From Thiomargarita sp. (GTDB lineage: Bacteria > Pseudomonadota > Gammaproteobacteria > Beggiatoales > Beggiatoaceae), in NCBI GenBank assembly GCA_020721005.1, contig DYNP01000005.1, positions 1-64,000 of the forward strand: DNA of 64,000 nucleotides, in the 5' to 3' direction. The notes beneath the pieces are model-generated. The model worked only from the letters and a program-made list of their open reading frames with translations. It was not told where the DNA came from and searched no databases. A program made the translations under genes and the position numbers. Below are positions 8,310 through 25,479 of this stretch, one piece after another. Position 1 is the stretch's first letter, and the number at the start of each line of letters is the position of its first letter.

Positions 8310-9320
8310 ATGATGGTATCTTCATCCAAAATTTTAGTGACAGGGGCCGATGGTTTTATTGGCTCTCACTTAACGGAAAAATTGGTGAGGCAGGGTTATT
8401 CTGTAAAAGCTTTTGTTTTATATAATTCTTTCAATTCTTGGGGCTGGCTAGATCATTCTCCAAAGGAAATTTTAGAAAACTTGGAAGTGTTTTCGGGCGA
8501 TATTCGCGACCCTTATGGAGTTAAAGAAGCCATGAAAGGCTGCGATATCGTGTTACACTTGGCGGCATTAATTGCGATTCCTTATTCTTATCATTCACCC
8601 GCAACTTATGTGGATACGAATGTAAAAGGAACGCTAAATGTGGTTCAGGCAGCCAGGGAATTAGACATTGAGAAAGTTGTGCATACTTCCACTAGTGAAG
8701 TTTATGGCACGGCTAAATTTGTTCCCATTACCGAGGAACATCCCTTGCAAGGTCAGTCTCCTTACTCTGCCAGTAAGATAGGGGCTGACCAAATTGCCCT
8801 GTCTTTTTACCAATCTTTTAATACCCCTGTATCAATTATTCGTCCTTTTAATACCTATGGACCTCGACAGTCAGCACGGGCTGTGATTCCTACAGTGATT
8901 ACTCAGATTGCTAATGGAACACGGAAAATTAAGCTGGGTGCATTGCATCCCACAAGAGATTTTAATTACGTCAAAGATACAGTTCGAGGATTTATTGCCA
9001 TAGCGGAGTCAGAAAAATCCATCGGCGAAGTGATTAATATTGGCAGTAATTTTGAAATTTCTATTGGTGACACGGTGCAACTTATTGCCGAGGCAATGGG
9101 TGTAGAGGTTGAGATCGAGACGGATGAGGTTCGTTTACGTCCTGATAAAAGTGAAGTGAATCGTTTATGGGCAGACAATGCCAAGGCCAAAGAGCTTGTG
9201 GGGTGGGAACCTTTATATGGTGGACGTGAAGGGTTTAAGCGGGGTTTGGCAGAAACGGCAGAATGGTTTATGAATCCAGCAAATTTGGCAGGATATAAGA
9301 GCGATCGCTACAATATTTAG
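8310..9320 (+). CDS. legB: NAD-dependent nucleotide-sugar 4,6-dehydratase, legionaminic acid pathway
   Basis: A 336-residue extended SDR. The N-terminal Rossmann motif is TGADGFIGSHL, the catalytic region has HTSTSEVYGTA and YSASKIGAD (Tyr-x3-Lys), and RPFNTYGPRQ completes the dehydratase-like fold. Sequence and gene order match LegB, which in Campylobacter converts GDP-GlcNAc to the 4-keto-6-deoxy sugar, the first committed step towards legionaminic acid. It heads a tight run of seven genes. A HIP1 octamer lies near its 3' end (9301-9308). Dehydratases of related nonulosonate or bacillosamine pathways are the alternative, but the neighbours favour legionaminate. Confidence 0.85.
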   Translation: MMVSSSKILVTGADGFIGSHLTEKLVRQGYSVKAFVLYNSFNSWGWLDHSPKEILENLEVFSGDIRDPYGVKEAMKGCDIVLHLAALIAIPYSYHSPATYVDTNVKGTLNVVQAARELDIEKVVHTSTSEVYGTAKFVPITEEHPLQGQSPYSASKIGADQIALSFYQSFNTPVSIIRPFNTYGPRQSARAVIPTVITQIANGTRKIKLGALHPTRDFNYVKDTVRGFIAIAESEKSIGEVINIGSNFEISIGDTVQLIAEAMGVEVEIETDEVRLRPDKSEVNRLWADNAKAKELVGWEPLYGGREGFKRGLAETAEWFMNPANLAGYKSDRYNI

Positions 9321-9333
9321 GGGTATTTGAAAA

Positions 9334-10509
9334 GTGGACAAACTAGAACAGGATTTTTTACGGGGGCTGCAAACTGTCTTAGGACAGCCGAATCCTTTTG
9401 TGCCACTCCACGAACCTGAGTTTATGGGCAATGAGTGGGAACTCGTCAAAAATTGCCTTGATTCCACCTTTGTTTCATCTGTTGGTAAGTACGTCGATCG
9501 TTTTGAAGTCATGCTGGCGGAATATACAGGAGCGAATTATGCCGTAGCGGTGGTAAATGGCACGGCTGCCCTGCATATTGCGTTATTGTTGGCAGGGGTT
9601 AGACCCGGAGATGAGGTCTTAATTCCGGCTTTATCTTTTGTGGCGACAGCAAATGCGGTGTCTCACTGTGGAGCAATTCCCCATTTTATCGATAGTGAAT
9701 TTAAGACCTTGGGGATAGATCCTCATGCTTTGAGTGACTATCTCAAGCATTGTAGCTTGTCTAGTTCAGAGGGATTAACGAATCGATTGACAGGGCGGCG
9801 GATTGCTGTGGTTGTGCCTATGCACACTTATGGTCATCCAGTAGATATGGGTTCTCTGCTTGATGTGGCAGATCGTTATCATTTGCCTGTGGTGGAAGAT
9901 GCGGCGGAATCTTTGGGCAGTTGTTATCGGGGTCAACATACGGGAACGTTTGGGCAGTTGGGAACGCTAAGTTTTAATGGCAATAAGGTGATAACGACTG
10001 GTGGAGGCGGAGCGATTTTAACCAATAATGCAAAATTGGCTCAACAGGCTAAACATTTGACGACAACTGCGAAACAGCCTCATCGTTGGGAGTTTTTCCA
10101 TGATGCCGTTGCTTGGAATTATCGCTTGCCGAATTTGAATGCTGCTTTAGGATGTGCTCAGATGGAGAAGTTACCTAGTCTTTTGAATCGCAAACGATTA
10201 TTAGCGCAGAAATATCAGGAGGTATTCCAAGATGTTGAGGGAGTCGGTTTTGTCGTTGAGCCTGCCAATAGTCAGAGTAATTATTGGTTAAATACTCTGC
10301 GGTTAGAAGAGCCTAGTTTATTAGTCCGTGATCGCCTCTTAACCGTTGCCAATGATGCAGGGTATCAATGTCGTCCTACTTGGACATTGCTCCATAAGCT
10401 GCCAATGTATGCTGATTGTCCTCATGCTCCTTTGCCTGTTGCGGAACAGTTGGAAGTCAGTTTAATTAATGTGCCTAGTAGTGCAAAACTTGCGGGGGTG
10501 GCAAGATGA
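9334..10509 (+). CDS. legC: PLP-dependent aminotransferase, legionaminic acid pathway
   Basis: A 391-residue DegT/DnrJ/EryC1-family aminotransferase starting with GTG at 9334, 13 bases after legB. The PLP lysine lies in LSFNGNKVITTGGGG, and VEDAAESLGSCYRG supplies the conserved Asp. It should transaminate the 4-keto sugar made by LegB. The length and the N-terminal extension before LHEPEFMGNEWELVKNCLD match the LegC type found in bacterial nonulosonate clusters. Its stop overlaps the next start by 4 bases. Confidence 0.85.
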   Translation: MDKLEQDFLRGLQTVLGQPNPFVPLHEPEFMGNEWELVKNCLDSTFVSSVGKYVDRFEVMLAEYTGANYAVAVVNGTAALHIALLLAGVRPGDEVLIPALSFVATANAVSHCGAIPHFIDSEFKTLGIDPHALSDYLKHCSLSSSEGLTNRLTGRRIAVVVPMHTYGHPVDMGSLLDVADRYHLPVVEDAAESLGSCYRGQHTGTFGQLGTLSFNGNKVITTGGGGAILTNNAKLAQQAKHLTTTAKQPHRWEFFHDAVAWNYRLPNLNAALGCAQMEKLPSLLNRKRLLAQKYQEVFQDVEGVGFVVEPANSQSNYWLNTLRLEEPSLLVRDRLLTVANDAGYQCRPTWTLLHKLPMYADCPHAPLPVAEQLEVSLINVPSSAKLAGVAR

Positions 10510-11675
10510 TGGCACAGCGCAAAATCTGTATTGTCACTGGGACTCGGGCTGAGTACGGTTTGCTGTACTGGCTGATGAAAGAAGTTGCTGATGATGATGA
10601 CCTAGCGCTACAGATTATCGCTACGGGGATGCATCTTTCTCCTGAGTTTGGTTTGACCTATCAGCAAATTGAGGCAGATGGTTTCAGTATTGATGCCAAG
10701 GTGGAGATGCTGTTATCGTCTGATACGCCTGTGGGAATTGCGAAATCTATGGGTTTGGGAGTTATCGGCTTTGCTGATGCTTTGGATCGCCTGAAGCCTG
10801 ATATTTTGGTGGTGTTGGGCGATCGCTTTGAAATTCTCGCCGCAGCTCAAGCGGCAATGGTTGCTAGAATTCCTATCGCTCATATTCATGGGGGAGAGAC
10901 GACGGAAGGGGCATTCGATGAGCAAATCCGCCATGCCATCACCAAATTTGCCCAATGGCATTTTGTTGCCGCAGAGCCTTATCGTCAGCGTGTGATTCAA
11001 TTGGGAGAATCCCCCGATCGCGTTTTTAACGTTGGTTCTCCAGGACTAGACCATCTTCAATATATGGACTGGCTCGATCGCTCTACTTTAGAACGATCAC
11101 TAGGACTGGAACTGCGATCGCCCCTCTTCCTAGTGACTTATCATCCGGTTACGCTAGATCAACAGTCTCCGTCAATCGCCATGCAGGAGCTATTAGCGGC
11201 TCTGGATGGTTTTCCAGAGGCAACGGTCATCCTGACCTATCCCAATGCTGATACAGGAGGGCGCATTTTGATTGAGCAAATCGATCGATGGGTGAAGTAC
11301 AATCAAGATCGAGCAAAAGCATTTGTTTCCCTTGGTCAGCAACGTTATTTAAGCCTGATGGGTGAAGCAGATGTCATTATTGGGAATTCCTCCAGTGGAT
11401 TAACCGAAGCACCCGCCCTAAAAAAAGCAACCGTGAATGTTGGTGATCGCCAAAAGGGTCGTCTCAAAGCCAAATCAGTGATTGATACGCCAGAACGCAG
11501 CCAAGATATTGTAGCGGGTATTCATCAAGCCCTATCTGACGAGTTTCAATCGATGCTACCCTCAGTCAAATCTTTGTATGGAACAGGAAACGTGAGTCAG
11601 CAAATCAAGGAAAAACTAAAAGCTGTGCCACTGCAAATCCAAAAAGCCTTTTTTGATATTCAGCATAATTTCTAA
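10506..11675 (+). CDS. legG: Hydrolysing UDP/GDP-GlcNAc-type 2-epimerase (NeuC/LegG family)
   Basis: A 389-residue protein of the NeuC family: it starts KICIVTGTRAEYGLLYWLM, with HIHGGETTEGAFDEQIRHAITK in the middle and VIIGNSSSGLTEAPALKK near the C-terminus, all typical of hydrolysing 2-epimerases. In the legionaminate route it inverts C2 and releases the nucleotide to give 2,4-diacetamido-2,4,6-trideoxymannose. It overlaps legC by 4 bases (ATGA). Two HIP1 octamers lie inside it (10819-10826 and 11114-11121), together with many GATCG hexamers, unlike genes outside the island. Confidence 0.9.
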   Translation: MMAQRKICIVTGTRAEYGLLYWLMKEVADDDDLALQIIATGMHLSPEFGLTYQQIEADGFSIDAKVEMLLSSDTPVGIAKSMGLGVIGFADALDRLKPDILVVLGDRFEILAAAQAAMVARIPIAHIHGGETTEGAFDEQIRHAITKFAQWHFVAAEPYRQRVIQLGESPDRVFNVGSPGLDHLQYMDWLDRSTLERSLGLELRSPLFLVTYHPVTLDQQSPSIAMQELLAALDGFPEATVILTYPNADTGGRILIEQIDRWVKYNQDRAKAFVSLGQQRYLSLMGEADVIIGNSSSGLTEAPALKKATVNVGDRQKGRLKAKSVIDTPERSQDIVAGIHQALSDEFQSMLPSVKSLYGTGNVSQQIKEKLKAVPLQIQKAFFDIQHNF

Positions 11676-11676
11676 A

Positions 11677-12750
11677 ATGTCCACATTTATTATTGCCGAA
11701 GCAGGGGTTAATCATAATGGCAACATCGATCTAGCCCAGCAACTCGTCGATATTGCTGCTGATGCGGGGGCAGATGCCGTTAAATTCCAAACTTTCCAAG
11801 CGGATCGGGTCGTGAGTCGTTATGCTCCCAAGGCTGAGTATCAAGCTCAAACGACAGGGAAAACGGAAAGTCAGTTGGAGATGGTTCGCAAACTGGAATT
11901 AAGCGCGTCGGATCACGAGGTTTTAATTCGTCATGCTCAGTCTAGAGGGATTCAATTTCTCTCAACCCCCTTTGATGTTCCTAGCTTATATCTCCTAACG
12001 CGAGATTTTGGTTTAAAAACGATTAAAATCCCCTCTGGAGAGATTACTAATGCCCCTTTTTTACTAGAAATTGCTCGTTCTGCTGAAAAGATCATTCTCT
12101 CGACGGGAATGAGTACCTTAGCAGAAGTAGAAGCAGCGTTAGGGGTCTTAGCCTTTGGGTTTACGACGGATCAGACGATTCCCCAGCGGGGAGATTTTGA
12201 GCAATCTTTTGCTTCAGACCAAGGACAGCAGGAGTTGCACGATCGCGTCACCCTCCTCCACTGCATTACTGAATATCCAGCCCCCTTTGCGGAAGTGAAT
12301 TTACGGGCAATTGATACTCTGTCGGCAGCTTTTGGGCTTCCGGTGGGTTATTCTGACCACACTCCGGGAATTCATATTTCCTTGGCGGCAGTAGCACGGG
12401 GTGCTAAAGTTATCGAGAAGCATTTTACAAGCGATCGCACTCTTCCAGGTCCCGATCATCAAGCATCCTTAGATCCCCAAGAATTAAATCAGCTAGTCCA
12501 ACAAATTCGGGAAATTGAGCAGGCATTAGGGGATGGTATTAAACGACCTACAGCCTCAGAGTGGAAAAATCGAGAGGTTGCCCGTAAAAGTTTGGTGGCT
12601 GCTAAGGCGATCGAGGCTAGTGAAGTATTTACGGCAGAAAACTTAACTTGTAAAAGACCAGGGACAGGCGTTTCTCCTTTTAGCTATTGGCAAACAATTG
12701 AGCAAGTAGCAACTCGAAGTTACGATATAGATGAAACTCTTGATGTCTGA
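11677..12750 (+). CDS. legI: N,N'-diacetyllegionaminate synthase (NeuB family)
   Basis: A 357-residue NeuB-family synthase. ATG 11677 is chosen because the protein then begins MSTFIIAEAGVNHNG as family members do; the longer in-frame start at 11653 would overlap legG. The TIM-barrel signature DAVKFQTFQADRVV and the IEKHFT...LPGPDHQASLDP segment are present, and residues about 295-357 form the SAF antifreeze-like domain. It condenses the mannose-type precursor with phosphoenolpyruvate. A HIP1 octamer lies at 12431-12438. The family also includes sialic and pseudaminic acid synthases, but the cluster lacks pseB/pseC-type neighbours. Confidence 0.88.
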   Translation: MSTFIIAEAGVNHNGNIDLAQQLVDIAADAGADAVKFQTFQADRVVSRYAPKAEYQAQTTGKTESQLEMVRKLELSASDHEVLIRHAQSRGIQFLSTPFDVPSLYLLTRDFGLKTIKIPSGEITNAPFLLEIARSAEKIILSTGMSTLAEVEAALGVLAFGFTTDQTIPQRGDFEQSFASDQGQQELHDRVTLLHCITEYPAPFAEVNLRAIDTLSAAFGLPVGYSDHTPGIHISLAAVARGAKVIEKHFTSDRTLPGPDHQASLDPQELNQLVQQIREIEQALGDGIKRPTASEWKNREVARKSLVAAKAIEASEVFTAENLTCKRPGTGVSPFSYWQTIEQVATRSYDIDETLDV

Positions 12751-13384
12751 AACTATCTATATTTTAGGTGCAGGTGGTCATGGGCGAGTTGTTTTAGATG
12801 CACTACTGGCTAACGGGATTCAAGTGACAGGTATTCTCGATGCCAATGCTCAGTTCTCAGGGCAACTACTTGGAGTTCCCATTTTAGGGGGAAATGAATA
12901 TTTAGATGGTGTGACAACTGCTCAAACATTTTTAGTGAATGGGTTGGGTGCTAATCCTAGAATATTGAGACGCCGCAATATATTTACTGTTATGAAAACA
13001 CGGGGATTTATATTTAAGTCATTTAAACATCCCTCGGCAATTGTGAGCAGTGCCATCAGTATGGGAGAAGGGTGTCAGGTTATGGCTGGAGTCGTTATCC
13101 AAGCTGGAGTGACTCTGGAGGAGAATGTGATCATTAATACAAGAGCCAGTATCGATCATGACTGTATGATTAGCTCCCACTCCTTTATTGCCCCCGGGGT
13201 AATACTGTGTGGCCATGTCACGGTCGCCTCATCTGCTTTTATTGGAGCGGGTGCCGTAGTAATTCCCAATATTCACATTGGAGAAAATGCGATTGTTGGC
13301 GCTGGTGCAGTGGTGACAAAACCCGTCCCAGATGGTTGGATTGTCGCCGGAAATCCTGCGGTTAAGATTGGGGTCAATAACTAA
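12743..13384 (+). CDS. legH: Sugar O/N-acetyltransferase, NeuD/PglD-like
   Basis: A 213-residue protein from ATG 12743 (an in-frame ATG at 12731 is also possible; both overlap legI). The N-terminal half is a Rossmann-like domain (YILGAGGHGRVVLDALLANG), and the C-terminal half is a left-handed beta-helix of hexapeptide repeats (VMAGVVIQAGVTLEENVIINT, AFIGAGAVVIPNIHIGENAIVGAGAVV). PglD/NeuD/LegH-type enzymes acetylate the amino group at C4 of UDP/GDP sugars, the step between LegC and LegG. The gene is tightly embedded between legI and ptmE. Confidence 0.82.
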   Translation: MSETIYILGAGGHGRVVLDALLANGIQVTGILDANAQFSGQLLGVPILGGNEYLDGVTTAQTFLVNGLGANPRILRRRNIFTVMKTRGFIFKSFKHPSAIVSSAISMGEGCQVMAGVVIQAGVTLEENVIINTRASIDHDCMISSHSFIAPGVILCGHVTVASSAFIGAGAVVIPNIHIGENAIVGAGAVVTKPVPDGWIVAGNPAVKIGVNN

Positions 13385-14433
13385 TGACTCAAGCGAATTG
13401 GAAAGATATCGTTATTTTTCCTGAAACATCGTTGGGAGAGGTGATCGCCAAAATAGACAAATCAGCCCTTCAAGTTGCGGTAGTTTTAAATCCTGACCAA
13501 ACCCTAGCGGGAATTTTGACCGATGGCGATATCCGTCGAGCAATATTAGCAGGAAAGAGTCTTGATGTTAGTGTTTCCGAGGTGATGAATCCTAGACCGA
13601 CTGCGGTTCCTATGTCCATGCCTCGTAGTAAAATGCTGACATTAATGCGTCGTAAAACACTCCACCACTTACCGCTCACTGATGAGAATCATCGGTTGGT
13701 AGGTTTAGCGACTTTAGACGATCTTATTGGTGCAGTCGACCATCCTAATTGGGTTATTCTCATGGTAGGAGGTCTAGGAACAAGACTACATCCATTAACC
13801 AAAGAATGCCCGAAGCCTCTGTTAAAAGTGGGGGGGAAGCCTATTTTAGAAATTATTATCGAGAGTTTTGCGGAACAAGGCTTTAAGCAGATATTTTTAT
13901 CTGTCAACTACAAGGCAGAGATGATCCAGGACTATTTTGGGGAGGGCAATCGCTGGGGCATACAAGTTAGTTACATCCATGAAAAAGAGCGTCTAGGCAC
14001 TGCGGGAGCTTTGTCTCTTTTACCAGAACGACCCACCACTCCCATGATTGTAATGAATGGGGATATACTAACTCGCACCAGCTTTGACAGTCTGCTCAAA
14101 TTCCACGAAGCACAAGATGCTGTGGCCACGATGGCAGTGCGCGAGTATGATTTTCAAGTGCCTTATGGTGTAGTGCGGATGGATGGTTCAAAAATTGAGG
14201 CAATTGAAGAGAAACCTTTACAACGTTTTTTCGTCAATGCAGGAATATATGTTCTTTCTCCAGAAGTTTTAAAGTATATACCTAAAGACGCTTTTTTTGA
14301 TATGCCGACATTATTTGAAAATCTAATTGCGGCTAATCAAGCAACTGCTGCCTATCCCCTGCGAGAATATTGGTTGGATATTGGCAGAATGAGCGATTTA
14401 GAAAGAGCCAATCAACAGCTTATTGAAAAATAA
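13384..14433 (+). CDS. ptmE: CBS-domain sugar-1-phosphate nucleotidyltransferase (PtmE-like)
   Basis: A 349-residue protein starting one base inside the legH stop. Residues about 8-115 contain two CBS motifs (LAGILTDGDIRRAI and LVGLATLDDLIGAVD). Residues 120-349 are a nucleotidyltransferase with MVGGLGTRLHPLTKECPKPLLKVGGKP and NGDILTRTSF. This two-part layout is that of Campylobacter PtmE, which makes GDP-glucosamine for legionaminate synthesis. Its presence supports a GDP-linked rather than UDP-linked route here. The last gene of the tight run; a 184-base AT-rich gap follows. Confidence 0.85.
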   Translation: MTQANWKDIVIFPETSLGEVIAKIDKSALQVAVVLNPDQTLAGILTDGDIRRAILAGKSLDVSVSEVMNPRPTAVPMSMPRSKMLTLMRRKTLHHLPLTDENHRLVGLATLDDLIGAVDHPNWVILMVGGLGTRLHPLTKECPKPLLKVGGKPILEIIIESFAEQGFKQIFLSVNYKAEMIQDYFGEGNRWGIQVSYIHEKERLGTAGALSLLPERPTTPMIVMNGDILTRTSFDSLLKFHEAQDAVATMAVREYDFQVPYGVVRMDGSKIEAIEEKPLQRFFVNAGIYVLSPEVLKYIPKDAFFDMPTLFENLIAANQATAAYPLREYWLDIGRMSDLERANQQLIEK

Positions 14434-14617: not shown

Positions 14618-15343
14618 ATGATCAATGGAAAATCTGTGTTGGCCATTATCCCTGCTCGGGGGGGATCAAAGGGGTTGCCGGGCAAAAATGTAAGAAGGTT
14701 GTGCGGGAAACCACTACTTATTTGGTCACTGGAACAAGCGATGAATAGTACTTACTTGGATACAGTATTTGTATCTACCGACAGTAATGAGATTTCAAAC
14801 ATAGCTGAAAGTTATGGAGCAGAAATACCCTTTTTACGTCCATCAGAATTGGCGATGGATTGTTCCCCAACTTCAGATGTGATTATTCATGTTTTAACAA
14901 CTTTTGAACAACAGGGCAAAAAATATGATTATGTTGTGCTTTTGGAACCGACATCTCCATTAAGAAAGGACAGGGATATTGATGATGCTCTTGAGTTGCT
15001 AATGGAACATTCAGATCGTGCGGATTGTGTAGTCAGTGTAGGGGAATTGCACATGGAACATCCTATGATTGTCAAAAAAATTAATGCCAAAGGTAGATTA
15101 ACTCCTTATATCGAGACCACAGAAAAAATTTATCAACGGCAGCAAGTTGATAAAGCTTATTTCCCCTATGGGGTTATTTATATCAGCAGTGTTTCAGCAT
15201 TTAAAAGAAATCTGACTTTTTATACACAGGAAACCATACCTTATCTCATTGAGAGATGGCAAAATTTTGAAGTGGATGATGAAATTGACTTCATGATCAT
15301 AGAAAAAATAATGATGAGAATGATGATTGCTGTCAACAATTGA
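14618..15343 (+). CDS. legF: CMP-legionaminic acid synthetase (NeuA/LegF/PtmB-type)
   Basis: A 241-residue cytidylyltransferase with an AAGGAA ribosome site. It starts SVLAIIPARGGSKGLPGKN (the CTP-binding loop), with LLEPTSPLRKDRDIDDALELL and DYVVLLEP typical of the CMP-nonulosonate synthetases. It activates the free nonulosonate for transfer by a glycosyltransferase. It lies after a gap from ptmE, and its base composition is more AT-rich than legB-legI, so it may belong with the second module of the island. CMP-sialate or CMP-pseudaminate synthetases are close relatives. Confidence 0.85.
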   Translation: MINGKSVLAIIPARGGSKGLPGKNVRRLCGKPLLIWSLEQAMNSTYLDTVFVSTDSNEISNIAESYGAEIPFLRPSELAMDCSPTSDVIIHVLTTFEQQGKKYDYVVLLEPTSPLRKDRDIDDALELLMEHSDRADCVVSVGELHMEHPMIVKKINAKGRLTPYIETTEKIYQRQQVDKAYFPYGVIYISSVSAFKRNLTFYTQETIPYLIERWQNFEVDDEIDFMIIEKIMMRMMIAVNN

Positions 15344-15374: not shown

Positions 15375-16120
15375 ATGACTGATGCCAGTTACGTTAATGC
15401 CTTAAAGCAAGATGGGCAAGGAGTTGTTGAATATTATCAGGTTTCTGTCCAGAATAAGACAGAACAACAAAAATTCCTGGAAAAACTGCTTGCCCGTTCC
15501 CTAAACCCAAATGACATCCAAAAAGTTGCAGATATAGCATGCGGCGGGGGGGGGTAACCTATCATATCAGTTCTATTTATCCTCAAGCAAAGTTCACATT
15601 AGTGGACTTAAACAAGGAGGCTATTACTCTTGCCAAACAAAATTTGCAACACTTAAGGGCGACTTTCCTTGTCGAGGATATGAACAAACTTTCGTTACCT
15701 GACGATGAATATGACCGGGTATTTTGTTGGCAAACTCTTTCCTGGACTGATTCTGAACTGGAAAAGTCCCTCGCAGAATTAGTACGTATCTGTAAACCAG
15801 GTGGGTTGATATATTGCAGTTCTCTATTCAACTTGGAGCACGAAGTGGATTTAAAAACAGAAGTATTTGACTGGACTCGGCCTTCTTGTGTCCAATCGGG
15901 CCACTGTTTTACTTATAAGACTTTTTCCTACCGAACTCTCCAGACTATACTTGAAAAATTGGTAAAACACTTCACAGTGCATAAATTTGATATGCCTATA
16001 GATTTGACATTCAAACCCAAAGGACTGGGCACCTATACTGTACGCTTGATTGATGGCTCAAGACTACAGATTTCTGCAGGAATGTTAATGAATTGGGGAA
16101 TCCTGGAGATAGAAAAATAG
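15375..16120 (+). CDS. SAM-dependent methyltransferase, out of frame at a G9 tract (OFF state)
   Basis: Two overlapping frames, 15375-15557 and 15539-16120, together encode one class I methyltransferase. The first ends at TAA directly after a run of nine G (15546-15554), in the SAM-binding motif I (VADIACGGG). With one extra G (ten), or two fewer, the frames join into a protein of about 248 residues. With ten G, motif I and the following IYPQAKFTLVDLN have exactly the usual family spacing. Later features include DEYDRVFCWQTL and LVRICKPGGLIYCSS. AAAGGGA precedes the ATG. The substrate is unknown, presumably a sugar of the surface glycan. A phase-variable contingency gene is my preferred reading; a sequencing error or simple pseudogene is possible. 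Confidence 0.75.
15546..15554 (+). repeat. Poly-G tract (G9) inside a methyltransferase gene
   Basis: Nine consecutive G in the codons for SAM motif I, followed at once by an in-frame TAA. One extra G restores the downstream frame. Homopolymeric G tracts of this size are classical slippage sites. Confidence 0.9.
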
Positions 16121-16207: not shown

Positions 16208-17413
16208 GTGGGCGATTTATCTTGGCGATTTGACGAAAGAGAGTATAACTACATTAAAGAAGTTTTAGATTCCGGGTTTGCCAGCGGAACCTCTGGAAAC
16301 ATGAACACTCGATTGGAAAGGGCATTTGCTGAGAGGTTTGGGCGAAAATATGCTATTACCTTCAATTCTGGTACAACTACCCTCCATGCTGCTCTGTGGG
16401 CTTTGGGGGTAGGATATGGAGATGAAGTGATCATTACCCCTTTAACAGTAATTTCCTGTATGAATGCAGTATTATATTGCAATGCCATTCCTGTTTTTGC
16501 AGATGTTGACCCGAATACTTTCCTTTTGGATCCCGAAGATATTCGCAGAAAAATTACTCCGAAGACGAAAGCTATTATGCCGGTTCATTTGTACGGGCAG
16601 GTATGTGATATGACGGAAATTATGTCTATTGCAAGAGAATACGGTCTTTCTGTGGTTGAAGATTGCGCCCAATGTTATTTGGGGACTCATAAAGGAAAAA
16701 TCGGCGGAACATTCGGAGATGTAGGCAGTTGGAGTTTTGAAAATTCCAAACATCTGACCACAGGCGACGGCGGCATTGTTACCTGCAATAATGAGGAGTT
16801 GGGAGACAAAATCCGAAAATTGAATTCTCAGGGATTTCGCAATGCCACGGCAATTAGCGGAAAAATACGAGTGTCGAGAGATATTTTTCAGAATCCGTCC
16901 TATAAACGTCATGACAGGTTGGGATTTATGTATCGGCTTCCCGAAGTCGCTGCGGCAATGGGCTTGGCGCAGTTGGAAAAATTGGAGTGGTTTGTGGAAA
17001 AAAGAGAGAAGATGGCTCAACTCTATAAACAAGTCCTGAAAGATACGAATTGCAGTTGGCTTGCGCCTCAGCTTATACCCAAGGGAGACAGAAACAGCTA
17101 TTATACATTTGCCGCAAAGTTTTTAAGGGAAGATCTGAAGTGGGAGGATTTCAGAAAAAAGCATATTGAAAACGGTGGGGACGGAGCTTATGCTGCATGG
17201 ACCTTGTGCTATCAGGAAGATTCTGTTCCGGATGTCAAAAGAATACTGGAAAGTATGCATCTGGGCGGAAGATTGAACACTGACAGGGGAATTTGTCCGA
17301 ATGCTGAGGCTTTACAGCCCAAACTGATGCAATTCACGACAAATCAGAAAGATGAAGATGAAATGAAGGTACAGGCTGAAGCATTGTACAAAACAATCAA
17401 ATATTTTTCCTGA
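16208..17413 (+). CDS. DegT/DnrJ/EryC1-family sugar aminotransferase
   Basis: A 401-residue PLP enzyme starting with GTG at 16208, six bases after a GGAGG. The PLP lysine is in WSFENSKHLTTGDGG; VVEDCAQCYLGTHKG supplies the Asp that binds the pyridine nitrogen; an early TFNSGTTTLHAAL motif binds phosphate. It is distinct from LegC upstream and so probably installs an amino group on another sugar, or on another position, in the same glycan. Sequence alone does not give the substrate. Confidence 0.85.
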   Translation: MGDLSWRFDEREYNYIKEVLDSGFASGTSGNMNTRLERAFAERFGRKYAITFNSGTTTLHAALWALGVGYGDEVIITPLTVISCMNAVLYCNAIPVFADVDPNTFLLDPEDIRRKITPKTKAIMPVHLYGQVCDMTEIMSIAREYGLSVVEDCAQCYLGTHKGKIGGTFGDVGSWSFENSKHLTTGDGGIVTCNNEELGDKIRKLNSQGFRNATAISGKIRVSRDIFQNPSYKRHDRLGFMYRLPEVAAAMGLAQLEKLEWFVEKREKMAQLYKQVLKDTNCSWLAPQLIPKGDRNSYYTFAAKFLREDLKWEDFRKKHIENGGDGAYAAWTLCYQEDSVPDVKRILESMHLGGRLNTDRGICPNAEALQPKLMQFTTNQKDEDEMKVQAEALYKTIKYFS

Positions 17414-17429: not shown

Positions 17430-18209
17430 TTGAATTTTTTTACGAAAATGCTTGACTTCAGTGATAAAGTTGTCATTGTAACCGGAGGACTGGGGTTAAT
17501 TGGGAAGCAACTTGTCTTAGCCTTTAACGAGTTTAATGCGACTGTCATTGTACTGGATTTGCTTTCTGAACGCTTTGAGGAATATTTTTCTTCGTGTGAA
17601 AATATCCATTTTTTTAAAACAGATATTGCCGAACCAAAGGAAATTCAAACATCTGTTGAACGGATCATAAAAGATTTCCGGAAAATAGATGTCTGGATAA
17701 ACGCTGCTTATCCCAGAACAACGGATTGGGGAAAAGCGATTGATGAGGTCTCTTTTGAATCATGGAATGAGAACCTGAAACTGCACTTGGGCAGTTATTT
17801 CTGGAGTTCTAAAACCGTATTGGAAGTGATGAAGGAGCAAAAAACCGGAAATCTGATTAATTTCAGCTCGATTTACGGCGTGGTAGGTCCCAATTTTGAT
17901 GTTTATAAGGGGACAGATATGACCATGCCGGTTGCATATTCTGCTATCAAGGGAGCTATCACGAATCTGACCAGATATTTTGCAACACTTTACGGCTCCC
18001 ATAATGTTAGGGTGAACTGTATTGCTCCAGGGGGAATATACAATCATCAGCCTGAAAAATTTGTTGAAAAGTACAATGAACTGACCCCATTGAAACGAAT
18101 GGGCAGGGATTATGAAATTGCTATGCCGACTCTTTTTTTAGCTTCCGAGGCTGCTTCTTATATAACTGGGCAGACAATAATAGTGGATGGAGGATGGACG
18201 GCTCAATGA
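17430..18209 (+). CDS. ptmA: SDR-family oxidoreductase (PtmA-like)
   Basis: A classical short-chain dehydrogenase of 259 residues. TTG 17430 has GAGGG about 8 bases upstream; ATG 17448 (protein MLDFSDKVVIVTGG) is the alternative. Motifs: TGGLGLIGKQL cofactor site, NFSSIYGVVG with the catalytic Ser, YSAIKGAI (Tyr-x3-Lys), and a C-terminal GQTIIVDGGW. Campylobacter PtmA, which acts in making the GDP-glucosamine precursor of legionaminate, is the closest functional parallel I recognise. The stop overlaps the next start (ATGA). Confidence 0.75.
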   Translation: MNFFTKMLDFSDKVVIVTGGLGLIGKQLVLAFNEFNATVIVLDLLSERFEEYFSSCENIHFFKTDIAEPKEIQTSVERIIKDFRKIDVWINAAYPRTTDWGKAIDEVSFESWNENLKLHLGSYFWSSKTVLEVMKEQKTGNLINFSSIYGVVGPNFDVYKGTDMTMPVAYSAIKGAITNLTRYFATLYGSHNVRVNCIAPGGIYNHQPEKFVEKYNELTPLKRMGRDYEIAMPTLFLASEAASYITGQTIIVDGGWTAQ

Positions 18210-18781
18210 AGAAACATGGTCTATTGAAAACAGCTTTCTGTTTGCATGATGATTCTATCTTTCTTTATCCTTTTACAAAAAAGGAACTTTATTCAGAGTG
18301 TTACCTTCGATGGATGAATGACCCCATAGTTACAAAAACACTGGGACGACTTGATTATCTTATGCCTGTAACTCGAAAGAAACTTATAGCATATTATCAT
18401 AATTTGGATTTTCAATATACCATTTTTTTAGCTATTTATCATTTAGAAAAAGATGGAAATGAGAAGAAATTTATTGGTACTTTAAAAATATTAGACATGG
18501 ATTTTATAGCAAGACGAGCTTCCATTGGGATTATGATTGGAGACAGGGCGAGTTGGGGGAAAAATTTTGCCACAAGGGCAATTGGAATAGCAAGCAATTA
18601 TATATTTGATGTTCTTGGATTCCGTAAAATTACAGCAGGATATATTGCCAATAATGTTGGGATGGAAAAAGCGTTTCTGAAAAATGGGTTTCAGATAGAA
18701 GCTAGATTTAAAGAGCATTTGATTTTTGATGGTAAATTCGTAGATCATGTGTTTGTTTGTAAATTTAGAGATAACTTGTGA
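18206..18781 (+). CDS. GNAT-family N-acetyltransferase
   Basis: A 191-residue protein from ATG 18206, which overlaps the SDR stop as ATGA; an earlier ATG at 18194 sits directly against the ribosome site and is less likely. LRWMNDPIVTKTLG, IGIMIGDRASWGKNFATRAIG (acetyl-CoA loop) and FRKITAGYIANNVGMEKAFLKNGFQ follow the RimJ/RimL or PseH-like pattern. In a glycan cluster it most likely acetylates an amino sugar. Confidence 0.75.
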   Translation: MKKHGLLKTAFCLHDDSIFLYPFTKKELYSECYLRWMNDPIVTKTLGRLDYLMPVTRKKLIAYYHNLDFQYTIFLAIYHLEKDGNEKKFIGTLKILDMDFIARRASIGIMIGDRASWGKNFATRAIGIASNYIFDVLGFRKITAGYIANNVGMEKAFLKNGFQIEARFKEHLIFDGKFVDHVFVCKFRDNL

Positions 18782-18803: not shown

Positions 18804-19916
18804 ATGAAGAAAATAAGGCATTGTGCAAAATGTTTGATGCTGGAAACAAGACCAAGAATCACCTTTAATGATAAAGGTGTATGTGGTGCGTGTCAGTGGG
18901 CAGAAGAAAAAAAAACCTCCGTTGATTGGGAAGCAAGATGGAAAGAATTGGAATATTATTGTGACAAATATCGCTCAAAATCGGGTAATTTTGATTGTAT
19001 AATTCCGGTGAGTGGTGGAAAAGACAGTTGCTATGTTTCCTATATGATGAAAGAGAAGATGGGAATGCATCCTTTACTTCTTCATGTTTGTCCTCCGCTT
19101 CCATTTACCATTGGAAATGAGAATTTGGAAACGCTAATCCAATATGGATTTGATTGTATTAAAATCCAGCCTAATCCGCAAATTGATAGGATGCTTGCCA
19201 AGGAAACTCTCGTTAATTACGGTCAGCCCCAATTTCCTTGGATGCACTGTGTACAGGTGGCCGCTCTAAAAACAGCAATCAGTTATAATATTCCGCTCAT
19301 CATGTGGGGGGAAGAAGGAGAAACGGAATATGGCGGTACAAAAAAAATAAAAAATACACCAACTTATGATGCTGAATATATTATCGGTGTATATTTGAGC
19401 GGAGTTAATTTCAATCAATATCTTAAAAAATTTTCTGAAAATCAACTGTTTTGGTGGCTATTTCCTACCGGCGAGGAGATTAGAAGAGCTGATTTAGTTT
19501 TCACACATTGGTCATATTTCGAGAATTGGGATCCGTACAGAAACTATTTGGTTTCCAAAGAAAAAATTGGTTTGAAGAGTGAGAAAAAAGCCTGTGTGGG
19601 GACCTACAACAATTTTGCTCAGACAGACACCCCGCTTTATGATTTACACGCCTATTTTATGTTTCTCAAATTCGGTTTCGGGCGTACTTCTCAAGATGCC
19701 TGCATTGACATTCGCCGAGGCGCACTGGCAAGAGAACAGGCAATAGAATTAGTTAGACGCTTCGACGGTAAATATCCCGAACCTTATATTGACACTTATC
19801 TTGATTATTACGGGATGACGCGGGAAGAATTCGAGGCAGTGGTTGATCAATGGGCAAACAAGGATATACTCATCAAGAAAGACGGAAGATGGGTAAAAAA
19901 TTTTGAAATCGGTTAA
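18804..19916 (+). CDS. N-acetyl sugar amidotransferase (WbpG/PseA/PtmG family)
   Basis: A 370-residue enzyme of the PP-loop ATPase superfamily. Two CxxC pairs (Cys7/Cys10, Cys27/Cys30) form a zinc knuckle. The ATP-pyrophosphatase loop is IIPVSGGKDSC (SGGKDS at 70-75), and LIMWGEEGETEYGG is characteristic of the N-acetyl sugar amidotransferases. These convert an N-acetyl group to N-acetamidino using ammonia made by HisH2/HisF2 partners, both of which occur downstream (23013-24414). This predicts an acetamidino sugar in the product. AAGGAG precedes the start. Which sugar is modified cannot be read from sequence. Confidence 0.88.
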   Translation: MKKIRHCAKCLMLETRPRITFNDKGVCGACQWAEEKKTSVDWEARWKELEYYCDKYRSKSGNFDCIIPVSGGKDSCYVSYMMKEKMGMHPLLLHVCPPLPFTIGNENLETLIQYGFDCIKIQPNPQIDRMLAKETLVNYGQPQFPWMHCVQVAALKTAISYNIPLIMWGEEGETEYGGTKKIKNTPTYDAEYIIGVYLSGVNFNQYLKKFSENQLFWWLFPTGEEIRRADLVFTHWSYFENWDPYRNYLVSKEKIGLKSEKKACVGTYNNFAQTDTPLYDLHAYFMFLKFGFGRTSQDACIDIRRGALAREQAIELVRRFDGKYPEPYIDTYLDYYGMTREEFEAVVDQWANKDILIKKDGRWVKNFEIG

Positions 19917-19931
19917 ATTGGAGGTAATAGC

Positions 19932-20846
19932 ATGGCTGAACATCATGAAACAACGCGAAAAATTTATCACGAACAACATAAGCGGCTCTCTGCCGACGAA
20001 TCTGCCAAACGCCGTATTGTTGATATGTATTCCGAAAAATATTTCGGATTGGGCGATAATTGGTTCAGAGGTAAAAAGGTGTTTGATGCGGGCTGCGGAA
20101 ATATCGCCTCATTGATGATCCGAATGGCTCAGTTCGGCGCAGAAAAGGTTTACGGCATGGATGTCGGGGAAGAATGGATACCGCTTGTAAGGGAAGAAAT
20201 GAGAAAATCCGGAATATCGGAAGACAGTTATGTTCTGAGAGCCGGAAATGTTCTTGATATTCCTTTTGCTGATGGAACATTCAATTTTGTTTCCTGTAAC
20301 GGCGTGTTGATTCACCTTCGTGATCTTGAAGAAGTGCGTAAAGGGTTTCGAGAATGCTCTCGTGTTTGTGCTGGGGGGGGGGTACTGTACACTTCCTTTG
20401 GCGTAGCCGGAGGACTTTTTGAAGAAGCTGTTTTTCCGGCTATGAGACGGTATTATTCCGAGAATAAAGAATTCAAACAACTCATTGATAATATCAATCC
20501 TTCAATGATTCATGATTTGTTCTCGAAAATCGAATCCGATATAAAGATTCATACCGGTGAAGATGCTGACTTGTCTTTTCTCAAACCCTTGATAGATGAG
20601 GAGTGGTGTGTTTTTTGGCAAAATGCTCTTCAACCTCCCACAAGATACATGGTTGAATGCTCGCCGGAGTTTGTCGAAAAGCTTTATCGGGAAAACGGAT
20701 ATAAGGAAATTCGGCGGCTGAAAAGATACGTAACACGCTACAATATCCGAAAATTTTTTGCTCCGCTTCATTATGACTTACAACATCCGATTTCCAAGAT
20801 TCTATATGGGAATGGAAGCGTTGAGTATATTGCTAGGAAATATTAA
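19932..20846 (+). CDS. SAM-dependent methyltransferase with in-frame G10 tract (ON state)
   Basis: A 304-residue class I methyltransferase with GGAGG seven bases before its ATG. Motif I is VFDAGCGNIASLMIRMAQFGA, and FNFVSCNGVLIHLRDLEEV follows. The segment CSRVCAGGGVLYTSFG is encoded by a run of ten G (20373-20382). The frame is open through it, so the gene is on as sequenced; a change of one or two G would truncate it near residue 150. The target is unknown; the context suggests methylation of the glycan or of its amino sugar. Confidence 0.82.
   Translation: MAEHHETTRKIYHEQHKRLSADESAKRRIVDMYSEKYFGLGDNWFRGKKVFDAGCGNIASLMIRMAQFGAEKVYGMDVGEEWIPLVREEMRKSGISEDSYVLRAGNVLDIPFADGTFNFVSCNGVLIHLRDLEEVRKGFRECSRVCAGGGVLYTSFGVAGGLFEEAVFPAMRRYYSENKEFKQLIDNINPSMIHDLFSKIESDIKIHTGEDADLSFLKPLIDEEWCVFWQNALQPPTRYMVECSPEFVEKLYRENGYKEIRRLKRYVTRYNIRKFFAPLHYDLQHPISKILYGNGSVEYIARKY
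20373..20382 (+). repeat. Poly-G tract (G10) inside a methyltransferase gene
   Basis: Ten consecutive G within an open reading frame, encoding Gly-Gly-Gly and the first base of Val. It is the longest homopolymer I noticed in the island. Confidence 0.9.
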
Positions 20847-20847
20847 A

Positions 20848-22910
20848 ATGTTTGGCAGTAAACTTAAAATAGCACTCGGTGATTTGAGGCATTCGACTAT
20901 AGGCAGAAATAACTTTTCTATGCCCTTGGCCATCGGCTATATCGGCGCCTATATAAATTCTCAATTCGATTCAGACAACATTGATTTGCGCCTTTATACG
21001 GAACCTGCCGATTTTATGAATTGCATTGAGGAATGGAAACCGAATATTATCGGTTTATCCAACTTTTGTTGGAATAGCGAATTATCAATGTTGATGTGCA
21101 GGAATGCCAAGAAAAAGATTCCCGGCGTGTTGTGTGTGTGCTGGGAGGAGCAGAATTTCCTGCCACAGTCGAGGAAAGACGGACTTATCTCACACAAAGA
21201 CCCGAGATAGATTTGTATGTCTATGGGGAGAGCGAGTTGGCTTTTCTGAATTTGGTGCAGGTATTTATCGAGAAGAATTTTGATATTGACAAAGTCAAAT
21301 CCGATCCCAATAAGGGAACAGCCTCCATTCATCCCAAAACAGGGGAAATCCTTATTGGAGAACATATCCCTCGTCTCAAGGATATGGATATCATACCCTC
21401 TCCATATCTTACCGGTCTTTTTGACACATGGTTCAGACAGGATAATGTTCCTTCGGTTCAATTTGCAAGGGGATGTCCTTTCACATGTGGTTTTTGTCAT
21501 GGAGGACGGACAGATGAAAAATGTATTGGTATGTTTTCTTTTGAGAGAATCAAGGAGGAACTGAATTATATAGCAGAGCGGATAAAGGAAACAAATGGTA
21601 ATAAGATGCTTCAGATATGTGATACGAACTGGGGCATGTACAAAAGAGATGAAGATATTGCAAAACATCTTGCCTGGCTTATTGAAAAATATGATTGGCC
21701 CATGGCTTTTGATGTAAACAGCGGTAAAGAAAATCATGATCGGATCGTTTCCATTGCCAAAACACTCAAAGGCAGGTTTGTCGTTACTATTTCGCCTCAG
21801 TCTCTAAATGACTCTGTTTTAAAAGTAATAAAAAGAAAAAATGTATCAACAAATCGGTATTTTCAGTTAGTAGATCAACTCCAAAGTATCGGACAAAAAC
21901 CTTCTTGTGAACTTATAATCCCTTTGCCGGAAGAAACAAAAGATTCTCATTTTCAAGCATTGAAAACCCTGATAGATAATGGCATTTATACCGGATGCAC
22001 TTACACAACTATGATGCTGAAAGGCACTGCGTTAGCCTCGAAGGAATTTCGTGAAAAATATCGAATGAAGACAAAATACAGACTTATTCCGAGGCAGTTC
22101 GGTGAATACGCATCTGAAAAATGTTATGAAACTGAAGAAGTTTGTATTGAGACAAATACTATGCCGTTTTCAGATTATTTGGATTGCAGAGGCTTTGCCT
22201 TTATTGTGGCAATATTCACCGATATACAGTTCGATGTGATCCAACTTCATTTGAAAGAATTAAATAAAAGTCCTTTCGATTTTATCCGTTATTTGTGGGA
22301 ATCAACTAAATCCGAAAATAATTATCTGACAGAGATTTTCGATGAATTTATGGATGAAGCCAAGAGTGAACTTTTTGATTCAAAAGAACAATTGTATGAA
22401 TATTTTTCCTTTGGTGATCACTATAATGAACTATTCTTCGGAAAGAGAGGAGACAATCTCTTAAGAAAATATAGGGCAAAGGTAATGATAGAGGGGGAAA
22501 CTCGGCTTATAGAGTTGGCATATACAAGTCTCAAAAAAATAGCCGGTAAAAATTTTACAGATCAAGCGTCGAAAAGTTTGGATGCGGCAAAACACTGGGC
22601 TATGGCCACAAGAAACATCAGCAGCCTGTTCAGCAATGACGAATCTATTTTTGAAAAAACGGAAATTTTGAGACTTCCTTATGATGTTTTAGGATGGTAT
22701 AACAACAGAAATAATAAAAACGAGCCACTTACATCTTACAACACGCCTGTGGAATACAAAATGTTCTATGAGAAGAATGTACTGCAAATGCTTGTTGAAG
22801 GTGCCAGATTACATGGTAGTGATAAAGTTTATATGCTCGGCAAGCTTTTGGTCAATTGGAGGACAAGTTTGTTTTGGCGATCTTGCAGTTACAATTCCGA
22901 AGTGAAATAA
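20848..22910 (+). CDS. B12-binding-type radical SAM protein, frameshifted at a (TG)5 tract
   Basis: The N-terminal frame (ATG 20848, stop at 21210) and the larger frame 21096-22910 form one protein of about 686 residues when one TG unit is removed at 21131-21140, giving IPGVLCVLGGAEFP across the junction. Residues about 5-150 resemble a cobalamin-binding domain (SMPLAIGYIGAYI, VLGGAEFP, DLYVYGESEL). A radical SAM domain follows, with FARGCPFTCGFCHGG (C-x3-C-x2-C, binds the 4Fe-4S cluster). Such proteins often methylate unreactive carbons or rearrange substrates. It lies between the methyltransferase and hisH2. As given, it is out of frame; slippage, decay or a sequence error are all possible. 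Confidence 0.7.
21131..21140 (+). repeat. (TG)5 dinucleotide tract at the radical SAM frameshift
   Basis: Five TG units (preceded by GTGT) lie exactly where the two reading frames meet. Losing one unit rejoins them. Confidence 0.75.
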
Positions 22911-23012: not shown

Positions 23013-23639
23013 ATGATCACCATTGTAGATTATAAAATGGGCAATCTGCGTTCAGTGCGGAATGCTCTTGGATTTTTAGGATATGAATCTCGTGTAAGCG
23101 GAAACCCTGATGAAATTGCGGATAGCAAAATGCTTATTCTTCCCGGCGTGGGCTCGTTCCGGGAAGCGATGAAGAACATTCGTGAGACAGGTTTGGAAGA
23201 GGCTCTGAATGAGGGCGTGCTGAATAAAAAAAGACCGATTCTTGGTATTTGTCTCGGAATGCAACTTCTGGCTTCAGAAGGTACAGAGGACGGCATTACC
23301 AAAGGGCTTAATTGGATTCCCGGAACAGTTCAAAAATTTCGATTCGATGACCCGTGGATACGTTTACCTCATGTTGGTTTCAATGCGGTGCATTTCAAGG
23401 AAACTGGTCGGAATTTATCTGAAGGACTGGGTGAGTCTGTAGATTTCTATTTTGTTCACAGCTATCATTTTGTCTGTGAAGATAAGTATGTTACTGGAGA
23501 AACAGATTATCATCAATTATTTGTTTCGAGCGTAAAGAGAAACAATATTTGTGGAATGCAGTTCCATCCCGAGAAAAGTCAATGCAACGGTCTGAAATTG
23601 TTAAAAAATTTTATAAACACACACTTAAATCATGCTTAA
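23013..23639 (+). CDS. hisH: Glutamine amidotransferase subunit HisH2-type, for sugar amidination
   Basis: A 208-residue class I glutaminase of the HisH type. The catalytic triad is complete: Cys80 in GICLGMQLL, His185 and Glu187 in FHPEKS, with the oxyanion loop LPGVGSF. It releases ammonia from glutamine. The location in a glycan cluster with a WbpG-type enzyme and the absence of any other his genes argue for the HisH2 role, as in Pseudomonas O-antigen synthesis. It overlaps hisF by 8 bases. Confidence 0.88.
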   Translation: MITIVDYKMGNLRSVRNALGFLGYESRVSGNPDEIADSKMLILPGVGSFREAMKNIRETGLEEALNEGVLNKKRPILGICLGMQLLASEGTEDGITKGLNWIPGTVQKFRFDDPWIRLPHVGFNAVHFKETGRNLSEGLGESVDFYFVHSYHFVCEDKYVTGETDYHQLFVSSVKRNNICGMQFHPEKSQCNGLKLLKNFINTHLNHA

Positions 23640-24414
23640 AAAACGGCTTATATTTGCTTTATTGCTAGATGAAGGATATTTTCAACTGAGCAGAAATTTT
23701 ACACTGCAATCTGTGGGTGATTTGGAATGGTTATATGAAAATTATAATTTGAAAGCTATTACCCAGTCTGTTGACGAATTGCTCTTACTGAATGTAGGAA
23801 GAGGAAAAAAAGATACAAAGGAATTTTCGAGGCAGATTATAGAAATCACAAAAAAGTGTTTTATGCCCATTGCTGCGGGCGGTGGATTGCGGACCATAGA
23901 AGATGCTTATCTTATCCTCAATTCAGGAGCTGACAAACTGGTCGTTAATACCTCTCTTTTTACTCAGCAATCGTATATTTCGGAATTGATCAAGATTTTC
24001 GGCAGTCAGTCTATTGTCGCTTCTATTGATTATAAAAGGACAGAAAAAGGTACGGACGTTTTCATAAACAATGGGACCCTGTCTTTGGGGATAAGCATTG
24101 AATATGCAATTTCCGAAATCCAAAAACTTAATGTTGGAGAAATTTATTTGACTTCAATAGAGCAAGATGGAACTGGACAAGGGCTGGATTTAAAGGTCTT
24201 GTCAAAAGCCACTATGGCTACAAACATTCCAATTATTGCTTCTGGTGGTGTGGGTAAATTAGAACATTTTATTGAAGGATTCAATATTCCTTTTATAACC
24301 GCGGTTTCGACGGCAAACATCTTTAATTTTATTGGGGATGGATTAATCACAACAAGGCTTAAACTTAAGCAGGAAAAAATTCCTCTTGCAGAATGGTTAG
24401 ATGAATGTAATTGA
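23632..24414 (+). CDS. hisF: Imidazole glycerol phosphate synthase-like cyclase subunit HisF2-type
   Basis: A 260-residue TIM-barrel HisF homologue: AAGGGLRTIEDAYLILNSGADKLVVNT, YLTSIEQDGTGQGLDLKVL and IIASGGVGKLEHF follow the family pattern, including the SIDYKR and DGTGQG phosphate-site regions. Its start lies inside hisH. In WbpG systems HisF2 is thought to channel ammonia from HisH2 to the amidotransferase. A true histidine-pathway role is less likely since hisA, hisI and hisG are absent. Confidence 0.85.
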   Translation: MLKKRLIFALLLDEGYFQLSRNFTLQSVGDLEWLYENYNLKAITQSVDELLLLNVGRGKKDTKEFSRQIIEITKKCFMPIAAGGGLRTIEDAYLILNSGADKLVVNTSLFTQQSYISELIKIFGSQSIVASIDYKRTEKGTDVFINNGTLSLGISIEYAISEIQKLNVGEIYLTSIEQDGTGQGLDLKVLSKATMATNIPIIASGGVGKLEHFIEGFNIPFITAVSTANIFNFIGDGLITTRLKLKQEKIPLAEWLDECN

Positions 24415-24519: not shown

Positions 24520-25479
24520 ATGAAAACCGATAAATTGTTTTATCGAATATTTTTGTCTCAACCGGATTTGATTAAAGAATTATTGCCAGAAATCCCTGCC
24601 GATTGTGAATTTAGCTACAGTGCTCCTGTGATTAAAGAGCAGGGATTGGCGTTGGATGGGTTATTAACCCCAATTGGGGATGATTTAAATTTGCCACTGG
24701 TGATTTTAGAAGCTCAAATGCAGCAAGATCAGCAATTTTATGGACGATATTTTGCGGAAATATTTTTATACTTATATCAATATCGTGTCGAAAGACCCTG
24801 GTATGGACTGTTAATTTTGCCAAACCGCAAACAGGATTTGGGGTCTCGAGTGCCTTATGAAGCCTTATTGGGCGAACAAGTAAAGGAATTCTACCTGGAA
24901 GATTTAAAGTCCCTAACAGAGGAAAAATTGACTCCAAATTTGGGTTTATTAAAATTGCTGACAGTGAAGAAATCAGAGGCATTCCAATTGGCAAAATGGA
25001 TTCTCAACAGTGTGGAGAATGAAGCAGAATTGCAACAACGGTTGAATCTGGTAGAGATCATACTGACTAACAAGTTCCCACAATTAACTACCGAGGAGAT
25101 TTTAAAGATGTTAGATTTGAAAACGGCGGACATCACTCAAACTCGCTTTTATCAGGAAATTTGGCAGGAAGCTCAGGAAAAAGGTCTGGAGAAAGGTCTA
25201 GAAAAGGGAATGGAGAAAGGTCTGGAGAAGGGCCTGGAAAAGGGAATGAAAGAAGGTCGTAAGGATGGTCTTCAGGAAGGTCGCAAGGATGAAGCGATCA
25301 ATTTGGTTATGCGATTGATTCGGAAACGACATGGTATTTTGTCAGTTGATCAAGAGGTGCGCATACAACAATTAACAGTTTTACAGTTAGAAGCCTTGGC
25401 TGAAGCGGTGTTGGATTTTGTCAGTAAGAGTGATTTGGAACAGTGGCTAACTCGTTGTGATTTCAAGAGAGATGAATAA
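24520..25479 (+). CDS. DUF2887 PD-(D/E)XK nuclease/transposase-like protein
   Basis: A 319-residue protein. The N-terminal half (LFYRIFLSQPDLIKELLP, YSAPVIKEQGLALDGLLTP, LVILEAQMQQDQQFYGRYFAEIFLYL) matches DUF2887, with the likely nuclease residues Asp46 and Glu64-x-Gln66. Residues about 210-260 form a charged repeat of EKGLEKGMEKG-type units, probably an extended helix. These genes occur in many copies in cyanobacteria and Beggiatoa-like genomes and are thought to be related to recombination-promoting nucleases. Here it sits inside the glycan island, as a likely insertion between hisF and an acetyltransferase. Confidence 0.78.
   Translation: MKTDKLFYRIFLSQPDLIKELLPEIPADCEFSYSAPVIKEQGLALDGLLTPIGDDLNLPLVILEAQMQQDQQFYGRYFAEIFLYLYQYRVERPWYGLLILPNRKQDLGSRVPYEALLGEQVKEFYLEDLKSLTEEKLTPNLGLLKLLTVKKSEAFQLAKWILNSVENEAELQQRLNLVEIILTNKFPQLTTEEILKMLDLKTADITQTRFYQEIWQEAQEKGLEKGLEKGMEKGLEKGLEKGMKEGRKDGLQEGRKDEAINLVMRLIRKRHGILSVDQEVRIQQLTVLQLEALAEAVLDFVSKSDLEQWLTRCDFKRDE

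Follow-up and report, generated by a model that had tools for sequence, protein, structure and literature searches.

The methyltransferase gene that starts at position 15375 of the DNA analysed here (the window, a 64,000-nucleotide stretch of a Thiomargarita sp. contig) is probably a phase-variable, PtmH-like component of a cluster for amidated legionaminic acid (a nonulosonic acid), caught in its OFF register. We consider it most likely that the tract turns modification of a cell-surface sugar on and off reversibly, because relatives of this gene in two other phyla are broken at G-runs at the same spot. Poly-G contingency switching is best known from Campylobacter. The host is probably a free-living gliding sulfur bacterium and belongs to the Beggiatoaceae, for which GTDB holds 25 genera (PMC11172852). 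The assembly contains no 16S gene, but ValRS, RsxA and other genes look gammaproteobacterial, and a family of 25 genera with genome sizes of 2-8.5 Mb agrees with this placement.

The features that define the break are as follows.

15375..15557, + strand: methyltransferase gene, 5' part, coding for 60 aa up to motif I and closed by TAA
15546..15554, + strand: G9 tract in SAM motif I, in the out-of-frame register, with G-runs at the homologous site of L052 (G9) and L068 (G16)
15539..16120, + strand: methyltransferase remainder in the -1 frame, a 193-aa ORF (Methyltransf_25, E=1e-15)

The preliminary description had placed a stop codon directly after nine G in motif I, and this was confirmed: the TAA at 15555-15557 lies immediately 3' of the G9 and in frame with the ATG at 15375, which is itself preceded by a ribosome-binding-site-like AAAGGGAAAG. 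The 60-aa fragment ends in ...VADIACGGGG, which corresponds to the first strand and motif I of class I SAM methyltransferases, and it aligns with the first 60 residues of the homologues (53% identity to L051). The claims that the rest of the enzyme follows in another frame and that the family spacing is kept across the tract held up equally well. The frame of the remainder opens just 5' of the G9, its Methyltransf_25 match spans profile positions 9-97 and thus lacks no more than strand 1 and motif I, and its ~190 residues are open and conserved to the C-terminus, with 43-45% identity to L051, L052 and L068 through the last residue. Once the protein is read across the G9, it aligns with intact homologues from end to end, and motif I has the same length as the ACGGGGLSYH of an intact homologue from a Bacteroidales MAG. 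Methyltransf_25 and Methyltransf_11 scores were above the gathering scores and the profile matches solved SAM methyltransferases, in agreement with a class I fold. The locus thus has a long homopolymer within a coding sequence whose frame is lost exactly at the tract.

The gene lies within a run of genes on the same strand, which we assigned as listed below; "above cut-off" refers to the NCBIfam cut-offs, which were passed by LegB, LegC, NeuC, NeuB, NeuD, WbuX and HisH.

8310..9320, + strand: LegB 4,6-dehydratase (TIGR04180, 549 bits, above cut-off)
9334..10509, + strand: LegC aminotransferase (TIGR04181, 540 bits, above cut-off)
10506..11675, + strand: LegG/NeuC 2-epimerase (TIGR03568, above cut-off)
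11653..12750, + strand: LegI/NeuB synthase (TIGR03569, above cut-off)
12731..13384, + strand: LegH/NeuD acetyltransferase (TIGR03570, above cut-off)
13384..14433, + strand: CBS-nucleotidyltransferase, PtmE-like by synteny (syntenic, 40-44% identity in the L052 and G081 clusters)
14618..15343, + strand: LegF/PtmB-like CMP-sugar cytidylyltransferase (CTP_transf_3 of Pfam, E=2e-26)
16208..17413, + strand: LegC/PseC-type aminotransferase
17430..18209, + strand: PtmA-like dehydrogenase (NF050062, E=1.5e-54, below cut-off; syntenic in L052 and G081)
18194..18781, + strand: GNAT acetyltransferase
18804..19916, + strand: WbuX/PtmG-type N-acetyl sugar amidotransferase (TIGR03573, above cut-off)
19932..20846, + strand: second class I methyltransferase, intact (Methyltransf_11, E=2e-14)
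20848..22910, + strand: B12 radical-SAM C-methyltransferase-like gene (KedN5-like), frame broken (Radical_SAM, E=1e-11; KedN5 family, E=3e-41, below the curated cut-off)
23013..23639, + strand: HisH-type amidation partner, WbuY-like (TIGR01855, above cut-off)
23632..24414, + strand: HisF-type amidation partner, WbuZ-like (TIGR03572, E=4e-61, below cut-off)

A full CMP-Leg pathway is therefore present together with a PtmG-type amidotransferase, with the HisF/WbuZ and PtmA-like matches falling below cut-off, and as judged from these profile matches the gene set is that for acetamidino-substituted (amidated) legionaminic acid. No NCBIfam PtmH model gave a match. At the downstream edge of the cluster (24520-25479 of the window) there is a DUF2887/DUF4351 gene (Rpn-like transposase/nuclease), which is consistent with a mobile origin of the cluster.

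Comparing the tract length in related genomes, as the preliminary description had proposed, sets this G9 apart. In the spirochaete MAG Turneriella sp. Bin_83R (L052) the homologue carries a G9 at the same motif-I codons, and in a Campylobacterota genome (G081; L068) it carries a G16 there; both genes are out of frame exactly at the tract, the latter with a frame offset opposite to that of the G9 at 15546-15554, and both sit in syntenic Leg clusters. Tracts at the homologous site thus differ in length and register between relatives, as for a contingency locus, and the three tract-bearing proteins share only ~45% identity. Eleven other copies of the gene, from seven genomes, encode the same glycines by mixed codons, have no run and are intact at motif I, so the G run is not forced by the protein. 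Long motif-I G-runs in three phyla, with the gene broken each time, are difficult to account for unless a switch is selected for or tolerated. In a tree of nine homologues the three tract-bearing sequences lie on long branches and do not group as one clade, a topology that may be compatible with a single origin. In Helicobacter copies, G9-G12 runs are often found not at motif I but towards the 3' end or immediately next to the gene. Two of them (L053 and L054) are near-identical in their N-terminal half and divergent afterwards, with G-runs near the 3' end, a pattern that looks like gene conversion combined with C-terminal switching.

The same comparison bears on the idea of recoding, in which slippage of the ribosome or of RNA polymerase at the G run would let one allele give both the short and the full-length protein. 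A G run is indeed slippery, the downstream frame is the -1 frame, and such recoding could coexist with switching at the DNA level. Nevertheless, tract length and frame offset differ among the homologues (G9, G9 and G16, the G16 with the opposite offset), so no fixed recoding signal is conserved, and the downstream fold is modest (z = -2.1) with its hairpin ~35 nt away. We regard recoding as very improbable, and a conserved programmed frameshift was rejected, since the offset is not conserved and a strong stimulator is lacking.

The gene itself is sparsely distributed. Homologues were present in 8/397 sampled Campylobacterota genomes, in 1/247 genomes of the Turneriella phylum and in 1/297 genomes of the Bacteroidales phylum, and G081 is the only carrier among the 153 genomes of its family. 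Among the 369 genomes of the own-class sample only the present one has the gene, which was not found in any close relative in that sample; the gene is therefore probably foreign. No homologues were found on plasmids or in viral contigs.

Two neighbouring methyltransferase genes also contain simple repeats.

20373..20382, + strand: G10 tract inside the second methyltransferase, in frame
21131..21140, + strand: (TG)5 repeat exactly at the radical-SAM frame break

For the second methyltransferase no homologue was found in 190 relatives. In the radical-SAM gene two open frames meet near 21126-21144, and with one TG unit fewer the protein would read PGVLCVLGG, as long as the PDVLAIMGG and PDTLVVMGG of intact homologues. 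This (TG)5 is the only period-2 run of at least 10 nt in 464 kb (the window plus a 400-kb sample), where ~1.2 per 400 kb are expected, and from its position we consider it a candidate second switch. With the G9, G10 and (TG)5, each of three methyltransferase genes within 8 kb contains a rare simple repeat, at which two of the genes are out of frame. The Turneriella Leg cluster (L075-L076) likewise has a G10, in frame, in its LegH/NeuD-like gene (joined coordinates 11582-11591); apart from its G9 and G10, that 40 kb has no G/C run of at least 8.

We also determined how unusual such tracts are in this genome, a single assembly of 4.05 Mb in 133 contigs that is 99.7% complete. It contains 25 distinct G/C runs that reach at least 9, of which twenty have a length of 9 and five a length of 10. 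Markov models trained on 400 kb of its sequence put the expected number at about 10-16, so a G9 per se is only mildly enriched genome-wide. Many of these runs are intergenic and some lie within repeat elements. Intergenic G9/G10 runs were seen in recurring elements at L009, L011, L012, L019, L025 and L030, which include CCCCC..TTGAAAAGGGGG-like palindromes and TTTGTGTATGTGGGGGGGGG.TGCCTACGGCTGAC copies, and the genome count of long G runs is inflated by them. At L027 (1501-1510) a G10 lies at the extreme 3' end of a large ORF; a change of register there would alter or lengthen the C-terminus, so that this tract may be a C-terminal switch. A genome-wide excess of long G tracts, a trait typical of Campylobacter genomes and not needed for a single switched locus, was not found, and we rejected a Campylobacter-like genome-wide poly-G system because the 25 tracts are at most 2.5x expectation and lie mostly between genes or within intact ORFs. 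Since ten of the runs lie in intact ORFs and 25 were counted against 10-16 expected, the G9 alone is not evidence of switching in this genome. A 400-kb sample of the genome has 45 Gly-Gly-Gly triplets, and for none of them do the codons form a run of G7 or longer; by a post hoc count the cluster holds 2 of the 25 tracts, 5 kb apart, where the genome rate predicts ~0.06 per 10 kb.

The intact tract-bearing genes are informative about assembly quality as well. Homopolymers are the classical site of miscounts, and if the G9 is one, the true gene would be in frame and constant; the (TG)5 break might then reflect another error. However, only one of the eleven tract-bearing long ORFs examined is broken at its own tract, namely the methyltransferase at 15375; the other ten have G/C runs of 9-10 in frame and include ValRS, TrkA, PntB, a PDH E2 subunit, a RecB-like helicase, a fatty-acid hydroxylase and a transglutaminase. 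The assembly therefore does not habitually miscount G/C runs, and moreover two unrelated assemblies also lose the frame of this gene at that site, which makes an assembly or sequencing miscount quite improbable.

A fixed loss deserves somewhat more weight, though we judge it unlikely as well. In that case the gene would have arrived by transfer, its tract having perhaps been a working switch in the donor, and would by now be a pseudogene next to a radical-SAM gene that is also decaying. The uniqueness of the gene in the own-class sample and its probable foreign origin fit such a history, as do the out-of-frame state of the adjoining radical-SAM gene and the near-chance tract numbers genome-wide. 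Against this, neither gene has a second lesion, the ~190 residues past the tract have stayed open and conserved, both breaks fall exactly on rare simple repeats rather than at random places, and the remaining cluster genes are intact.

Altogether, the points that count for a phase-variable switch are the intact and conserved remainder, the same-codon tracts, the full amidated-Leg gene set and the repeat-bearing neighbours; those that count against it are the lack of Campylobacter-type genome-wide poly-G enrichment and the absence of the gene from close relatives. Our best reading is a laterally acquired, phase-variable cassette for sugar methylation. Replication slippage in the G tract would alter its length; in the present register the product would stop in SAM motif I and not bind SAM (OFF), and another register would yield the full enzyme (ON). 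The ON enzyme would N-methylate the 5-acetamidino group of CMP-Leg5Am7Ac before transfer of the sugar to a surface glycan, so that through switching the surface sugar would be methylated in some cells and unmethylated in others, with escape from phages or grazers as a possible benefit. Reversible slippage at this site is our inference, as are the precise substrate, the glycan that accepts the sugar and any such benefit.

As to the acceptor, a profile search of the 99.7%-complete genome gave no Flagellin_N (PF00669) match, and four control genomes were positive. A flagellar role of the cluster was rejected on this basis, and because flagellin is absent by profile search the acceptor is likelier to be LPS, a sheath or slime polymer, or pilins, which we take as the most likely targets of the sugar. 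A PilM-like gene was recognised by eye in the genome (L018). The preliminary description had drawn an analogy to the phase-variable flagellar methyltransferases of Campylobacter; of this, the match of cluster and enzyme to the PtmH/Cj1325 pathway stands and is strengthened by the same-codon tracts in two phyla, and the word "flagellar" finds no support.

Poly-G switching of surface sugars has been studied mostly in pathogens and attributed to host immunity. The kind of switch is already known from Campylobacter; new are its occurrence in a lineage without detectable flagellin, the presence of a G tract at this motif in two further phyla, and neighbouring genes with repeats of their own. If it operates in a probably free-living sulfur bacterium and in the spirochaete MAG, the likely selective cause would be phages, predators or biofilm life, and the Gly-Gly-Gly motif of SAM enzymes would be suggested as a recurrent seed for such switches. 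More tentatively, and with rather less confidence than we place in the switch itself, amidated Leg clusters could move between phyla as phase-variable cassettes. In the present sulfur bacterium, for which no animal host is known, the G9, G10 and (TG)5 methyltransferases would then each switch on their own and allow as many as eight methylation states of the surface sugar, presumably as a defence against phages or grazers. A Beggiatoa phase-variation paper concerns other repeats.

The closest known system is PtmH (Cj1325) of Campylobacter, which N-methylates CMP-Leg5Am7Ac and has a homologue among the Legionella LPS genes (PMC3766260). Cj1325 and Cj1326 were two genes in the first annotation and were later merged as phase-variable, because a homopolymer separates the two ORFs (PMC1899501). 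Their tract has been observed at G8-11 with one length in frame (PMC3025981), and ON and OFF alleles have been told apart by Ribo-seq (PMC11955535). As in C. jejuni and C. coli, the present locus is a methyltransferase in a Leg5Am biosynthesis cluster that is split into two ORFs by a poly-G tract. The putative orthology to Cj1325 rests on gene content, synteny and family likeness, not on sequence alignment. In contrast to PtmH, the host here is gammaproteobacterial and apparently flagellin-less, and the tract is known from one assembly. We know of no poly-G tract in the ORF 8 methyltransferase of Legionella pneumophila Sg1. This LPS-locus enzyme, a PtmH homologue, shares the gammaproteobacterial type of host and serves legionaminic-acid N-methylation of LPS, not flagellin (PMC3766260). 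The tandem Helicobacter homologues (L053, L054, L065 and L066) belong to the same methyltransferase family and several have G-runs in the gene; unlike here, these runs are in the last third and not in motif I, and the tandem copies share their N-terminal half. The Turneriella sp. MAG Bin_83R cluster (L052, L075-L076) differs in being from a spirochaete and in having no second and radical-SAM methyltransferases at the homologous place, but it has the same genes in a similar order, with a G9 at the same codons and the gene out of frame.
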